Source: a virus. Taken from it: DNA of 29,697 bases. The notes below the pieces were generated by a model, which ran no database searches, had not been told where the DNA came from, and was given only the letters and a program-made list of their open reading frames with translations. A program made the position numbers and the translations under genes. Position 1 is the stretch's first letter, and each line of letters begins with the position of its first letter. Positions 13,001-29,697 of this stretch are shown one piece after another. The stretch is taken from positions 1 through 29,697 of IMG/VR virus record IMGVR_UViG_3300036768_001053. One strand, 5' to 3'.

Positions 13001-13337
13001 GCTGCTCGGGCGGTTCGCCGAGCAGGCGCAGGCCCAGCGCAAGCAGCTGCAGGACGCCCTCGGCCAGGTCCAGGCCGTGCTCACGTCCGAAACGTCCGTT
13101 CATCATGACCTGACTGCGGCGCTCGAAAGCGAGCAGGACGCGCGCCGCGAGGTGCTTGAGACCATGCGCGAGGAGGGGCGTATGCGGCGCGAAGCGCTAG
13201 GCGACCTCGGGGCACTCGCCGTGGCGGCTGCGTCGGCTGCTGCCGCTGCGTCGGCTGCTGCCGCTGCGCTGGATGCGCTCCGCGTAGCCAGCGAGGCGCT
13301 GCCGGCGCCGGTACCGGCTACGAGGACGACGTCATGA
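10065..13337 (+). CDS. Tape measure protein
   Basis: At 1090 residues this is the longest gene. Start is GTG 10065 with AGAGGAGG 6 nt upstream. The N-terminal half has coiled-coil helices followed by a lambda H/TMP_2-like domain (TGMSDEHVKAAEAILLTYRSV, VMGTDLQTAVRQVGMALEDP). A glycine-rich hydrophobic region at about residues 603-665 (GAAGGAIAGASMGMTFGPWGAVIGAIIGG split by short links) probably enters the host membrane. The C-terminal third is coiled coil and ends with an alanine-rich helix. The protein sets tail length: at about 1.5 angstrom per residue the tail would be roughly 150-160 nm. An 18-bp tandem repeat lies near the 3' end. Confidence 0.93.
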   Translation: MPRADAIIVARADVTGAIEGLQTLSQQLEATGKTGDVAAQESAKFERQLSNLLRSLDPVGAATARYERQQDLLRQAYERGRLSAEQYADATAKLKAKFEEKMAALQRGPQVFDALIQRYTGLSREAFTAVGIIGGLAAGLTFSVRAAAEAEAADRRLEAMLRATGGAAGVTKAQLDALATEIQRATGMSDEHVKAAEAILLTYRSVNAEVFPKAIRLAADLAAVMGTDLQTAVRQVGMALEDPIGGMDRLRRAGVVLDEQTRAYIQTLVDAGKQEEAQRVLLEQLEIRVGGVAKAVGSGLTGQLNAAKQAFGDLAEYVGGTVLPLLTSIATGFNNVLSGINELIGQTKERGLKGLVDTFGDLAVGLGLAKAEDVNAGAAMLGLKDSTEKARIQVKTLQEAVKGITPDVVAWKEETKKAGDEQARLKVLNEQLKSVTDELKIAQQEHRDLVQDLVKAGADHYTVIQMTLPELEQYWQKWQNVDLVLRNLPDDVNAVIQAWPSVDEIERVFPIPKPPEEQWWKDKWSAKGREAISAFSESFGAGFFAFLSGDDFRSAFSQVWGTLANIAQGILGNTFQQIFSGQGSFMKRLQESGWVSPGGAVNWQQVGMVGGTMLWGYGASQGNRGMGAAGGAIAGASMGMTFGPWGAVIGAIIGGIIGYFTSGAKTYGYNIALDRYGRGIVDITGVSQPEEDERLRQLRDVARQYFSGFRALLELLRQPLPDTSQWKFEAHGQAGDTAGMWQRIISGDLPRSIFALYRPAIEAGLGQLGVAQERIAELMGQFQTGQFSEALSELTDYVRALMRLRDLHAELGKSLEQLRSEWQQTVEERLRQGTMDTLQAIQEGIAAMQQMTSPEQVQRANQLADAIERQGQALAQYIQAIFAEQTRAQQQVEGLRASWEEQRAREQGAGALADYYQQRYSQLVQQLSGATSLEQAQFLWQQVLQVLQGGWQVGGQPGMEYMRQWAEHALGPAEAMYHELLGRFAEQAQAQRKQLQDALGQVQAVLTSETSVHHDLTAALESEQDARREVLETMREEGRMRREALGDLGALAVAAASAAAAASAAAAALDALRVASEALPAPVPATRTTS
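13227..13262. repeat. 18-bp perfect tandem repeat in the tape measure gene
   Basis: Two adjacent copies of an 18-bp unit (gctgcgtcggctgctgcc) at 13227-13244 and 13245-13262, with six further matching bases after them. They code for Ala/Ser repeats (AASAAA) in the C-terminal helix. The in-frame length means slippage would lengthen or shorten the helix by six residues without breaking the gene. Confidence 0.85.
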
Positions 13338-21271: not shown

Positions 21272-22003
21272 ATGGCAGACATCGTACTGGCACAAGGGGC
21301 AGAGATCGCTACGGCAGAGGACGCGGCGCGCGTCGCGGAGCTACACCGCGCCCTCCGCGTGGCAACACTCCGCATCACCCGGGCCTCCGACTGGGTGGAC
21401 ATGGATGGCCAGCCATACCTTTCCGCTTCTGGGGCCCAGCGGCTCGCTCCGCTGTTCAGGATCAGGACGCGGGGCGTACGCGTTGAACGGGTCGAGGAAC
21501 CGGGCGGCGGGTACACCGTCGTTGTGACCGGGGAGGCGTGCTCCGAGGTGCTCGACCCTGACGGCTGGCAAGAGGTCGTGGGCACCGCGAGCTCGGAGGA
21601 CCGCTTCTTGACCAAGGGCGGCAGGGTGAAGGCGGCCTACGGCGACGTGTTGAAAAAAGCCATGACCAACTTCACCGCGCGGGCCATCAAGCAGCTGATC
21701 GGCCTCGGCGGCATAACCTGGGAGGACCTCGCCGAGCACGGCATCCGCAGGCAGGATGCGCCCCAGGTGCACTACGCCTCGCCTACGCGCGAGGGGTGGG
21801 TAGCGATCAAGATCCGCTACCAGGACCGCGACCGCCTGCGGGCGATCTGCAGGTCAACAGCCGGCGTGTCCCCGACATGGGACGGTGAGACAAAAACGTG
21901 GAGGGTCCCGGCTGAGGTCGCGTCGCATCAGGAGGTGAAGGCGATGATCGAGGCCGCCTTGGCGGCGAAGAGCAGCGCCGAGCTGCCACTGGAGGAGCCA
22001 TGA
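21272..22003 (+). CDS. Putative ssDNA-binding/annealing-type recombination protein with a HARP-like C-terminus
   Basis: The 243-residue protein starts at ATG 21272 with AAGGAGG a few bases upstream. The N-terminal part carries TRASDWVDMDGQPYLSASGAQRLAPLF. That pattern recurs in phage proteins encoded beside RecB-like exonucleases and is usually annotated hypothetical. The middle has TKGGRVKAAYGDVLKKAMTNF. The C-terminal segment (about 180-215, IKIRYQDRDRLRAICR through SPTWDGETKTWRVP) resembles a HARP-type motif found in SMARCAL1-family annealing helicases. Directly followed (ATGA) by a Cas4-like nuclease, it may act as the annealing partner in a two-component recombination system. The function is inferred from context. 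Confidence 0.7.
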   Translation: MADIVLAQGAEIATAEDAARVAELHRALRVATLRITRASDWVDMDGQPYLSASGAQRLAPLFRIRTRGVRVERVEEPGGGYTVVVTGEACSEVLDPDGWQEVVGTASSEDRFLTKGGRVKAAYGDVLKKAMTNFTARAIKQLIGLGGITWEDLAEHGIRRQDAPQVHYASPTREGWVAIKIRYQDRDRLRAICRSTAGVSPTWDGETKTWRVPAEVASHQEVKAMIEAALAAKSSAELPLEEP

Positions 22004-22962
22004 TCGCGGAGCGTATCGCAGAGCGCATCGTGTCCACCCAGAAGGTCTACAAGCCGGCTGGATTCAGGGCCTCCGAGGCAGGGCATCTGTGTCCGCGCTA
22101 TCACTACCATTCCAGGGTCAACTGGGATGCGCGCCCGACGCCGGACGCTACTCTCGCTCATATCTTCAGGCTTGGCCAAGCCATCGAGGAGTACGTGGTC
22201 GCCTTGCTGCGCGATGCCGGCATCCAGGTGGTGAAGGCGCAGGTGGCGGCCTACGAGCGCGCCAGCGATATCGTTGGGCACGTAGACGGGTTCGCCGTCA
22301 TCGGCGGCGAGGAGGTCCCGATCGAGATCAAGTCCGTGAGCGAATGGACGTGGCAAAACCTGCGCTCGTTCGGGGACATCCTGGCCTCGCAGAAGCCGTA
22401 TGTGCTTCGGTGGGCTGCCCAGCTCCCGCTCTACCTCTACTTGCACGAGCGCCATCGCGGGCTCTGGCTCCTGCTGAACAAGCAGACCGGCGAGCTGCGG
22501 GAGATCGAGGTGCGCCTCGAGGATGCCTGGCCGCTCCTCGAGCGCGTAGACGCGGTGCTCCGAGAGGCACGCGAGGCAATCTCGCGCGGCGAGCCTCCGG
22601 CGCCAAAGCCCGATTCTGTGGCCTTCTGCGGGAGCTGCTGGTGTCGCCAGGTCGGCCTGTGCCCAGGAGCCGCCCCGGCGGAGCCATCTGTCTCCGAGAT
22701 AGCCAGCGATCCTGAGATCGCAGAGGCAGCTGCTACAGTGGCCGAGCTCCGCGACGCCGCCAAACGGTACGAGTCAGCCCAAAAACGCCTCAAGGAGGCG
22801 CTGGCAAAGGTGCAGGTCGCTCCAGGTCAGCGCGTCGAGCTCCTCATCGGCAGTGTGCCGGTCCGCGTTTCGGCATACGAGACCACGCGGTACGACGTGC
22901 CCGAGGAGGTCCGCAGGCAGTACGCCACTCGCGTGGTGCAACAGCGGGTAGAAGTCCTGTAG
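22000..22962 (+). CDS. Cas4/RecB-like PD-(D/E)XK exonuclease with a cysteine cluster
   Basis: The 320-residue protein has a RecB-type nuclease core: GHVDGFAV (H94, D96), VPIEIKSV (E109, K111) and AAQLPLYLYL (Q141, Y145). One cysteine precedes the core (HLCPRY, C31), and a cluster follows it (FCGSCWCRQVGLCPG, C210, C213, C215, C221). This spacing is the mark of iron-sulfur-bound Cas4/AddB-type nucleases. A C-terminal helix-beta tail of ~100 residues is extra. It probably resects DNA ends for recombination-linked replication with the protein just upstream (ATGA overlap, GGAGG 4 nt from the start). Confidence 0.88.
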   Translation: MIAERIAERIVSTQKVYKPAGFRASEAGHLCPRYHYHSRVNWDARPTPDATLAHIFRLGQAIEEYVVALLRDAGIQVVKAQVAAYERASDIVGHVDGFAVIGGEEVPIEIKSVSEWTWQNLRSFGDILASQKPYVLRWAAQLPLYLYLHERHRGLWLLLNKQTGELREIEVRLEDAWPLLERVDAVLREAREAISRGEPPAPKPDSVAFCGSCWCRQVGLCPGAAPAEPSVSEIASDPEIAEAAATVAELRDAAKRYESAQKRLKEALAKVQVAPGQRVELLIGSVPVRVSAYETTRYDVPEEVRRQYATRVVQQRVEVL

Positions 22963-23057: not shown

Positions 23058-24524
23058 GTGTACGCGAAGATCTTCGACACCATCCTTCGCAGCTCGATCT
23101 GGGTCAACCACCCGCCCCACGTGCGTGTTGCCTGGATCGGGCTGCTGCTGCTCGCGAGGCCGGGGAGACTTCCGGACGGGCGCAGGGTCGGCATCGTGCA
23201 GGGGACGCGAGCAGGGCTCGCGAGGGCGCTCTCCCTCGAGCTGGAGCAGTTCGAGGAGGCCTTGGAGGTCCTGATGGCGCCGGACCCGGACTCCACCTCG
23301 ACCGAGTTCGAGGGAAGGAGGATCATCGAGCTGAAGCCGAACCGGTGGGCCGTGGTGAACTACTCCCGCTACCAGCGGATGCGTGACGAGGACAACCGGC
23401 GGATCCAGTCCCGCGAGCTCATGCGCGAGCTTCGCGAGGCGAGGAGGGGTGGCGGTGCTGCTGCTGGTTCGGGCAGCTCCTGGAGAAGCGCAGATGTGGG
23501 GACAAGGTTAGATGGGTCAACGACTTCAGCCAGAAATGCTAACAATGCTAACAGTGCTAACACTTGGCTCGCGAATGACCTAAAGCTAGCCGAGTCAACA
23601 ACTTCAGCCAGATGTGCTAACAATGCTAACATTGCTAACGCAGACGGCGGAAAAAGGCTAAGTGTAGACAGGTCACTAAGTTCAGCCAGAAATGCTAACA
23701 ATGCTAACAATGCTAACATCGGTAGCAGTGCTAACAAGGTGGCGGGTGACCGAAACCCGGACGCTGAGAGTGCCATTTTGGCACGCTCGGGAGGCTCGGC
23801 TGGTGCCATTTTGGCACCTCCAGCCGGCTCGAAAGGCGCTGGACCCGAGTTTTCCACAGGTTTTCCACAGGACACGGTCCTGAATGAGCAAGTCGTTGAC
23901 TGCGTAGGGGATGTTCCGACTTTTTCCACAGCTTTTCCACAGGTTTTCCACAGCTTTTCCACAACTTTTCCACAGCCTCCGAACTCGCCAGCATCGAGCA
24001 GACCGGCCCGGTTGCACAAAAACGAGTGCAGCGCCTACTACTACGATAAAGAGAGTACAGAGATCTCTCAGGAGTCTATAGTCGTGGGGGATATGGAGGA
24101 TAGGGGGGGATGCAAGGGGGGGAAAGGGGGAAAAGGGGTAGTCACATATCCTGCATCTCAGCCGAAGCACACGAAGCCCAAGAGGTCGACCGCCTCCTCG
24201 ATCTGGGTGCTGCAGCCGGGCGAGGAGCCCGTCATGAACTTCCCGTGCGAAGGAGAGGCCGACACCTGGGCCCTTTCCCCTTCAGGTTTTCGCTGGCTCC
24301 AGGAGCACTACCGCACCGTGGACGTTGAGGCGGAGCTCAGGTCCGCAAAGGCGTGGTTAGTAGGCAACCCTGGCCGGCTCAAGACCGCGCGCGGGATGCC
24401 GCGGTTCCTGGTCAACTGGATGGAGAAGGCTGCCCGCGACAGGCGCGGCTACCGGCGCCAGCCTGACCTGCTCGCGGGCGTGGAGGACCTGCTCAAGGGG
24501 GCAGGGGAAGGAGGTGACGAGTGA
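23058..24524 (+). CDS. Replication initiator (lambda O-like) carrying an internal origin
   Basis: The 488-residue protein starts at GTG 23058 with GGAGG 6 nt upstream. Residues 1-110 look like a winged-helix initiator domain (MYAKIFDTILRSSIWVNHPPHVRVAWIG split over two helices, IIELKPNRWAVVNYSRYQ). The C-terminal 90 residues (SGFRWLQEHYRTV, AKAWLVGNPGRLKTARGMPRFLVNWMEKA) match the end of many phage primosomal/replication proteins that contact the helicase. Between them (about 150-370) is low-complexity sequence: three NANNAN-type repeats spaced by 26 residues, FSTxFPQ repeats, and a GGKGGKG stretch. This part appears shaped by DNA-level origin elements. As in lambda O, the protein probably binds iterons within its own gene. 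Confidence 0.85.
   Translation: MYAKIFDTILRSSIWVNHPPHVRVAWIGLLLLARPGRLPDGRRVGIVQGTRAGLARALSLELEQFEEALEVLMAPDPDSTSTEFEGRRIIELKPNRWAVVNYSRYQRMRDEDNRRIQSRELMRELREARRGGGAAAGSGSSWRSADVGTRLDGSTTSARNANNANSANTWLANDLKLAESTTSARCANNANIANADGGKRLSVDRSLSSARNANNANNANIGSSANKVAGDRNPDAESAILARSGGSAGAILAPPAGSKGAGPEFSTGFPQDTVLNEQVVDCVGDVPTFSTAFPQVFHSFSTTFPQPPNSPASSRPARLHKNECSAYYYDKESTEISQESIVVGDMEDRGGCKGGKGGKGVVTYPASQPKHTKPKRSTASSIWVLQPGEEPVMNFPCEGEADTWALSPSGFRWLQEHYRTVDVEAELRSAKAWLVGNPGRLKTARGMPRFLVNWMEKAARDRRGYRRQPDLLAGVEDLLKGAGEGGDE
23516..23749. repeat. Three 78-bp direct repeats, each with an iteron triplet
   Basis: The marker GTCAAC/GTCAC begins at 23516, 23594 and 23672, exactly 78 bp apart. TTCAGCCAGA follows each, then three iterons with the core GCTAAC at 9-bp spacing. 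The core positions are 23538, 23547, 23556; 23616, 23625, 23634; 23694, 23703, 23712; and a tenth at 23730. Consensus of the 9-bp unit is AATGCTAAC. Both periods are multiples of three, so the repeats preserve the reading frame and code for NAN tripeptides. The third unit diverges after its iterons. Confidence 0.95.
23770..23817. repeat. Two identical 15-bp palindromes 33 bp apart
   Basis: GTGCCATTTTGGCAC occurs at 23770-23784 and 23803-23817. Each is a 6-bp inverted repeat around TTT; the second has one extra flanking G-C pair. The spacing of 33 bp is close to three helical turns, so both sites face the same side of the DNA. They lie between the iterons and the DnaA-like boxes and look like binding sites for a dimeric protein, perhaps the helix-turn-helix protein encoded at 21037 or a host factor. 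Confidence 0.88.
23850..23974 (+). repeat. Seven DnaA-box-like TTTTCCACA sites at 11-bp spacing
   Basis: TTTTCCACA starts at 23850 and 23861, and again at 23922, 23933, 23944, 23955 and 23966. All have the same orientation, and every neighbour within a group is exactly 11 bp away. The sequence fits the broad DnaA consensus TTWTNCACA. Since 11 is not a multiple of 3, each copy is read in a different codon phase, so the repetition is maintained for the DNA and not the protein. It probably loads host DnaA cooperatively. Confidence 0.9.
24103..24138 (+). other. G-quadruplex motif next to the origin
   Basis: Runs of 7, 7, 5 and 4 G are separated by loops of 6, 3 (AAA) and 4 (AAAA) nt, with a further G5 at 24086-24090. 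This fulfils the strict four-tract quadruplex pattern on the plus strand. It encodes a Gly/Lys-rich linker (GCKGGKGGKG) in the initiator. Being just beyond the DnaA-like boxes it may influence unwinding, primer synthesis or fork stalling. Confidence 0.75.
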
Positions 24525-28640: not shown

Positions 28641-29697
28641 ATGCTAGTACCCATCGAACTCTCTGAGGAGTTGCCGGCGATTCAGTGGCATATTCCAGGG
28701 CTCATCCCTGGTGGGTACATCACCACTGTCTACTCCCAGCCCGGGGTTTCGAAGACATGCATCGGCGCCTTCCTGGCCGTCCAGACGGCACGAAAGCATG
28801 GGAGCTTCGCTGGATACCAGGTCCGACACGGCAGGGCAGTGGTCATTGACGCCGATGATGGCAGCGGGATCGGTTATACGCTTTGGCTAAATCGCTTCAT
28901 GAGGGTGTACAAGGACGCTGACCGTCGCCTCATCTCGCTTTACTCGGTGGACGTGGATGGCCTGACCAGCGAAGACATCGAGCTGCTGGGGCAAGATCTG
29001 CGACGCGACCCGCCGGCCCTGGTTGTGCTGGATAGCTTCTCGTCTGCGTTCCCCTCGCTTGCCACACACATCCCGCACAAGGTCCACGCTTGCCTGAGAA
29101 CAATAGGCATGATCGCAAAGGAGAGTGGTGCTGCCATCGTGGTAGTAGACAGCGCCGGAAAACTTGTCACAGGGCAGAGCATCGCGTCGAAGGGTCCGCT
29201 TGGCACCGTGGCGAAGCTCATTCTCCCCCGGGCAGCGTTCGCGCTGGAGCGGGTGCCCCCTGCCGATGTGGACGGGCGGGACGTGCTCAAGCTCACGTGC
29301 ACCAAGCAGAGCTTTGGACCGGTGCCTCCTGCCCTGTGGCTGGAGTTGGTGAGACGCGGAGACGATGCGTTCGACATCGAGGTGGTGGAAGGGCAGTCCG
29401 CGATCCAGCGCGATGCGGACCACGTCCCGCGGTTCTTCGAGCTTCTGGGTGAGCTCTTGGGTTCCGGGCAGGCGCACTTGCTCTCCCGGGAGCACCCCCA
29501 GCAGCCACCAGAGCACCCGGAGCGCTGGGGCTGGAAGCCTGACGCCGCAGGAAGCCTCAGGCCGGGCGGGCCGCACATCGGCTGGGTGGACCGCACCTTC
29601 GCTTACCTGCTCCCCACCGCCACGTATGCAGCCCTGTGGAGACACGCCAGCACCGTCGGCTTGCCGCTTCCCTCGGAACGCGTGCTTTGGAAGCGGC
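28641..29697 (+). CDS. RepA-like replicative ATPase/helicase, N-terminal part (continues at base 1)
   Basis: The start is ATG 28641 with GGGAGG 6-7 nt upstream. The full protein across the join is 561 residues. The core resembles the RecA-fold AAA_25/RepA family of hexameric helicases. A P-loop-like SQPGVSKT lies at residues 32-39, IDADDG at 69-74, a Walker B strand PALVVLDS ends at D131, and VVVDSAGK at 167-174 occupies the place of the family's usual HH-GK sensor. The first and last glycines of the P-loop consensus GxxxxGKT are replaced by Ser, and the sensor histidines by Asp-Ser, although Lys38-Thr39 remain. The likely role is DNA unwinding or helicase/primase recruitment for phage replication, working with the initiator at 23058. 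The altered motifs leave ATPase activity unproven. Confidence 0.82.
   Translation, partial: MLVPIELSEELPAIQWHIPGLIPGGYITTVYSQPGVSKTCIGAFLAVQTARKHGSFAGYQVRHGRAVVIDADDGSGIGYTLWLNRFMRVYKDADRRLISLYSVDVDGLTSEDIELLGQDLRRDPPALVVLDSFSSAFPSLATHIPHKVHACLRTIGMIAKESGAAIVVVDSAGKLVTGQSIASKGPLGTVAKLILPRAAFALERVPPADVDGRDVLKLTCTKQSFGPVPPALWLELVRRGDDAFDIEVVEGQSAIQRDADHVPRFFELLGELLGSGQAHLLSREHPQQPPEHPERWGWKPDAAGSLRPGGPHIGWVDRTFAYLLPTATYAALWRHASTVGLPLPSERVLWKR
29610..29697. repeat. Terminal direct repeat, right copy
   Basis: Exact copy of bases 1-88. Merging the copies joins the reading frame that begins at 28641 to the one that ends at 717 without a stop or a frame change. Confidence 0.95.

Follow-up and report, generated by a model that had tools for sequence, protein, structure and literature searches.

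Introduction

Why should a phage gene for DNA replication carry, in the middle of its coding sequence, rows of short repeats of several kinds? The gene in question lies in a virus record of 29.7 kb (IMGVR_UViG_3300036768_001053), whose whole stretch of 29,697 nucleotides was analysed and is here called the window, and which carries terminase, portal, head, tail, Cas4-like exonuclease, Holliday-junction-resolvase-like and ATPase genes. Judged from its sequence, the virus is a high-GC phage without a close relative in the collections searched. Its terminase reaches no more than 46% identity, with that of a Marinobacter phage, which is insufficient to assign a host. An original prediction had placed an iteron origin at positions 23516-23749, inside the gene for the phage initiator, and the analysis that follows deals with what those repeats are, how far they extend and what they may do.

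The initiator and its linker

The initiator (replisome organizer) gene occupies positions 23058-24524 on the + strand, starts with GTG and encodes 488 amino acids, an assignment based on its open frame and on homologues of its N- and C-terminal parts. Just upstream, at 22000-22962, lies a gene for a Cas4-domain/RecE-like exonuclease (PHROG 1990, E 4e-28). An AAA_25 ATPase gene at 28641-29696 (Pfam E 2e-16) is cut by the end of the contig and could encode a phage helicase partner of the initiator. The N-terminal domain (residues 1-130; 23058-23447, + strand) is predicted by AlphaFold2 to be a winged helix, with a mean pLDDT of 94. Folding of the single sequence was poor, and the model used instead was built on an alignment of 15 sequences, namely the window protein and 14 phage relatives found through two loci similar to it at both protein ends (L022 and L059). 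Replisome organizers and replication proteins are among the best-ranked matches of this fold in a viral structure library, and comparison with the PDB gave general winged-helix regulators only, with Z below 8. The C-terminal domain (24213-24521, + strand) is assigned through its homologues to the replisome-organizer/DnaD-like type: tblastn hits (E 1e-5 to 2e-4) include proteins of a Ruminococcus phage (replisome organizer gp42) and of Vibrio phages (replication proteins), listed in PHROGs as DnaD-like helicase loader and replication initiation protein, and 89 homologous stretches were confirmed in viral contigs. For the protein as a whole, Pfam and NCBIfam gave no match and PHROGs no significant one, and searches of viral contigs and GTDB genomes brought up no close relative. 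On this sequence evidence, the initiator is a remote relative of the DnaD-like loader/replisome-organizer family through its C-terminal domain only.

The linker region between both domains (23504-24140) has the lowest GC content of any 637-bp stretch in the window, and along it iterons, palindromes, DnaA-box-like sites, a weak stretch and a G-run tract follow each other in a row. A single initiator ORF spans the whole repeat array, and its frame is free of stops over 23504-24140, where the other two + frames hold 9 and 18. The span given by the original prediction was too short: it covered the left third of a structure that continues to about 24140, and missed the palindromes, the array of DnaA-box-like sites and a candidate element for DNA unwinding.

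Nested iterons

The left part of the linker is made of three units (23504-23581, 23582-23659 and 23660-23737, + strand), whose starts are spaced by 78 and 78 bp, an offset that gives the strongest autocorrelation of the region. The number and the spacing of these units had been correctly anticipated, but not their exactness, as the pairwise identities are 56/78, 54/78 and 50/78 (64-72%). Each unit contains three adjacent 9-bp copies of (A/G)TGCTAACA, starting at 23536, 23545 and 23554 in the first, at 23614, 23623 and 23632 in the second and at 23692, 23701 and 23710 in the third; the expected count of three per unit is exceeded in this last one, where a degenerate copy (23719) and one more iteron (23728) follow. 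Exact TGCTAACA occurs nine times in the window, always on the + strand and within 23537-23736, against 0.11 expected on both strands, and TGCTAAC occurs ten times in the array, the tenth iteron being in unit 3. A triple-iteron pattern allowing up to 3 mismatches matches at the three units only, with none expected. Elsewhere in the window, long near-identical repeats lie close together at one site only, a perfect 18-bp tandem repeat (13225-13268) near the end of the tape-measure gene.

Conservation within the units is very uneven. A 38-bp core, made of TTCAGCCAG and the three 9-bp iterons, is identical at 34-37 of its 38 positions between units (89-97%), whereas outside the core only 16-22 of 40 positions agree (core versus rest, Fisher p 9e-4, 5e-8 and 5e-6). 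Judged from the sequences, such a pattern would result if the unit had been duplicated and the core then kept by selection, and gene conversion could produce it alternatively. The open frame translates the array as NANNANSAN, CANNANIAN and NANNANNAN, so that the predicted NANNAN peptides, 26 residues apart, are indeed encoded. With 10.5 bp per helical turn, 9 bp correspond to 0.86 turn and 78 bp to 7.43 turns, which would place successive triplets on roughly opposite faces of the helix. This phasing is unfavourable to the wrapping of DNA by initiator oligomers, a role that had been proposed for the two-level order.

Palindromes, DnaA-box-like sites and weak DNA

Downstream of the iterons, the perfect 15-bp palindrome GTGCCATTTTGGCAC occurs at 23770-23784 and, 33 bp further, at 23803-23817, its core being present 2 times against 0.0008 expected. 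The pair is able to form hairpins (z -4.7), and a relaxed version of the pattern had a single match in the compared loci (L069). These palindromes may be the sites of another regulator or hairpins.

The next element is an array of exact matches to the DnaA-box-like sequence TTTTCCACA, with two copies at 23850-23869 and five at 23922-23974, all on the + strand and at an 11-bp step, which would be about one helical turn. The 2+5 copies of this one-strand array compare with 0.09 expected, and there are none elsewhere in the window. The clustered sites fit TT(A/T)TNCACA, the published consensus of the DnaA box (PMC4674748), though the box preferred by the host may differ; TTTTCCACA is the usual box of most cyanobacteria (PMC4674748). 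Tandem TTTTCCACA/TTATCCACA with an 11-12-bp step was also seen in other viral contigs (L009, L013, L015, L017 and L019), for instance between Prim-Pol and terminase genes in L009 and near a Phage_F capsid gene in the microvirus-like contig L017. The DNA examined of other viral contigs with 11-bp TTTTCCACA arrays does not encode this initiator family.

The least stable 40-60-bp stretch of the window in a nearest-neighbour stability scan, at 24035-24095, is a candidate DNA unwinding element. The DnaA-box-like sites lie in the roughly 300 bp that separate it from the last iteron. It begins with a trio-like CTACTACTAC, and an oriC basal unwinding module of DnaA box plus DnaA-trios was thus considered. 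Such modules follow the rule that at least three DnaA-trios lie no more than 16 bp from a DnaA box (PMC8287927), and the candidate was rejected because CTACTACTAC starts 60 bp past the last consensus box; at 16 bp from that box, only a weak GGTTGCACA was found. The weak DNA adjoins a G-run (quadruplex-type) tract, GGGGGGGATGCAAGGGGGGGAAAGGGGGAAAAGGGG, detected by pattern scan at 24103-24138 on the + strand and also inside the coding frame.

Apparent constraint on the DNA of the linker

Among 5000 synonymous recodings that kept the protein, the maximum was 4 copies of TGCTAACA and 2 of TTTTCCACA, compared with the 9 and 7 observed. GC3 drops from about 0.9 to 0.33-0.53 in the linker, with rare codons kept, and the 11-bp boxes are read in all three codon phases. 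Codon differences between the 78-bp units are 39 non-synonymous versus 3 synonymous. The excess of repeats, the recoding test, the fall in GC3 and the stop-free frame together indicate that the linker appears to be translated and yet shaped by constraint at the DNA level.

Arrays in related initiators and the same motifs elsewhere

Repeat arrays are common in the linkers of related initiators. In a dereplicated set from viral contigs, 36/60 linkers contain some 8-mer three or more times and 15/60 four or more times, compared with 2.6% and 1.0% of control segments, which were similar pieces of other ORFs from the same loci (Fisher p 4e-28 for 36/60 versus 2.6%). The steps of these arrays are mostly of 10-12, 15 and 22 bp, and the Ruminococcus and Vibrio homologues carry in-frame linker arrays of 11 bp x 4-5 and 24 bp x 5. 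The sequence of the array varies from phage to phage in this family, as has likewise been noted for lambda, P22 and L (PMC8022706). The two-level order, which the original prediction contrasted with the simple iterons of lambda ori, is rare among the relatives but not unique, as one of them (L025) has an array with offsets of 54, 56 and 110. The initiator linkers of L104-L117 show 6-bp repeats coding AEAEAE, TDTDTD, SDSDSD or NTNTNT, which may be another iteron type or the result of slippage. A DnaA-box cluster is present in 0/63 relatives.

The closest comparison within the family is gp42 of Ruminococcus phage phiRgIBDN1 and its kin (phrog_8489, phrog_5708, phrog_1032), which share a homologous C-terminal domain and an in-frame 11-bp linker array, but differ in their much shorter linker, a different array sequence and the absence of a DnaA-box cluster.

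On the other hand, the iteron sequence is found in other settings. In an unrelated viral contig (L003, 1790-2110), a triple TGCTAACAG and more copies in both orientations lie between replication-type genes, some of these copies coding SANSAN at a gene end. In Psychrobacter, Colwellia, Pseudoalteromonas, Methylophilales and others (L118-L128), tandem AATGCTAAC in 3-11 copies occurs both between genes and within genes that are unrelated, and these tandems look like a widespread 9-bp minisatellite. The use of the iteron as a mark of the family was dropped, as L003 and 11 bacterial minisatellite-like loci carry it; since tandem AATGCTAAC also turns up as a plain minisatellite in bacterial genes that are unrelated, the sequence of the iteron has no diagnostic value by itself.

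A candidate origin inside the initiator gene

The linker-coding part of the initiator gene is probably the replication origin of the phage, in which the initiator would act on the iterons and DnaA as a helper. The layout is that of the origins within initiator genes of the lambda, SPP1 and phage L type, with an array between a predicted winged helix and a region of replisome-organizer homology, and with weak DNA nearby. The iteron origin of the original prediction is supported in its main lines, which agree with the predicted winged-helix N-terminus, the replisome-organizer-type C-terminus, the arrays in related linkers and the weak DNA downstream in the same linker, but without the wrapping. 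The main warning against an origin is the occurrence of tandem AATGCTAAC as a minisatellite in unrelated genomes. Other observations also count against it: GC skew, put forward earlier as a check, shows no switch at the site along the window; L022 and L059 have no comparable array; the 9-bp step is unlike the 10-12, 15 and 22 bp of the relatives; and 78 bp is not an integral number of turns.

Initiation would start with the binding of the initiator winged-helix domain to the ten TGCTAACA iterons, followed by the binding of host DnaA to the phased 2+5 TTTTCCACA array. Initiator and DnaA would then open the adjacent weak DNA around 24035-24095, and the initiator C-terminal domain would bring in the replicative helicase or its loader. 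Homology and the precedents of lambda ori, SPP1 oriL and RK2 oriV are what suggest each of these binding and opening steps.

Iteron origins inside genes are already known in lambda, Stx phages, SPP1 and phage L. In lambda, four 19-bp iterons with inverted repeats lie in gene O, with six in Stx phages, and two DnaA-protected sites are located downstream of the pO promoter (PMC3985674, PMC7466680, PMC5043065). The present locus resembles the lambdoid origin in that its iterons sit midway along the initiator gene and have an AT-rich region beside them, but differs in its ten 9-bp direct iterons in triplets and in having seven DnaA-box matches within the gene. In phage L, the initiator gene 18 holds six imprecise 11-bp copies that have been proposed as an origin (PMC8022706); they are likewise short repeats within an initiator gene, but form a single-level array, with no DnaA-box array described in the accessible part of that source. 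SPP1 oriL, in gene 38, is described as having direct repeats in the gene of its own origin-binding protein and an AT-rich unwinding element, with helicase loading afterwards (PMC6316719), the first two of which have counterparts here; a point of difference is the second origin of SPP1, oriR, about 13 kb away, and the accessible part of that account describes no DnaA module (PMC6316719). Finally, RK2 oriV combines an unwinding element with iterons for its own initiator and with a set of boxes for the DnaA of the host (PMC4980987), similar to the iterons, DnaA-box-like sites and weak DNA of the linker. Iteron plasmids differ in that their iterons are typically of 17-22 bp; here the whole set lies inside the initiator coding sequence, and the initiator has no Pfam match. 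A kinship with the plasmid Rep-family initiators of the RK2/P1/F type was also considered, and the structural comparison gave general winged-helix matches, with Z below 8. The combination of a seven-box DnaA array in coding sequence with triplet iterons was not found among the relatives examined or in the open-licence literature, which is weak evidence of absence.

Other readings of the repeats

An unlikely, though not negligible, reading keeps the iteron origin as real but gives the TTTTCCACA array no part in initiation, so that it would be a sink for host DnaA that slows host initiation, a regulator of transcription through the gene or the site of another protein. The array is dense and one-sided, no relative in the initiator family needs a DnaA-box array, and the similar 11-bp arrays of other viral contigs lie near differing genes (Prim-Pol, terminase, Phage_F capsid), all of which would suit such roles. 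However, the array separates the iterons from the weakest DNA of the window, which reproduces the set of elements of RK2 oriV (PMC4980987).

With still lower probability, the 9-bp repeats would be a minisatellite born by slippage, grown by 78-bp duplication and tolerated in a disordered linker without any binding role. The 9-bp step is a multiple of 3, and AATGCTAAC tandems do recur across bacteria and genes that are unrelated, as well as in one gene of a Helicobacter prophage, but this explanation fits poorly with a 38-bp core that was kept while its surroundings diverged, with the rare codons kept, with the position of the array among DnaA-box-like sites and weak DNA in an initiator gene, and with the finding that relatives carry arrays of a different sequence in the corresponding position. 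That the arrays shape the protein, as a NAN-rich flexible linker, and not the DNA is very improbable, for although the length of the iteron, like that of the unit, is a multiple of 3 and NAN peptides are repeated, the DnaA-box-like array runs with its 11-bp step through all three phases, the repeats of the DNA are not recovered by synonymous recoding, most of the differences between units are non-synonymous and the 10-, 11- and 22-bp steps of the relatives are not codon multiples.

Biological meaning

A replication origin in the linker of the initiator gene would extend the in-gene plan known from lambda and SPP1 to a phage of high GC content and join it with the iteron-plus-DnaA plan of the RK2 type. 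A more tentative idea, with chances somewhat short of even, is that two initiators act on one coding sequence, the phage winged-helix protein on the nested iterons and host DnaA on the phased array, so that the DnaA cycle of the host could gate phage replication and three DNA codes (iterons, palindromes and DnaA boxes) would coexist in one translated linker. Should the DnaA boxes be functional, the phage would rely on the initiator of its own host or compete with the host for it. Linker arrays are common and fast-changing in this initiator family, which would make them a simple predictor of origins in metagenomic phages.
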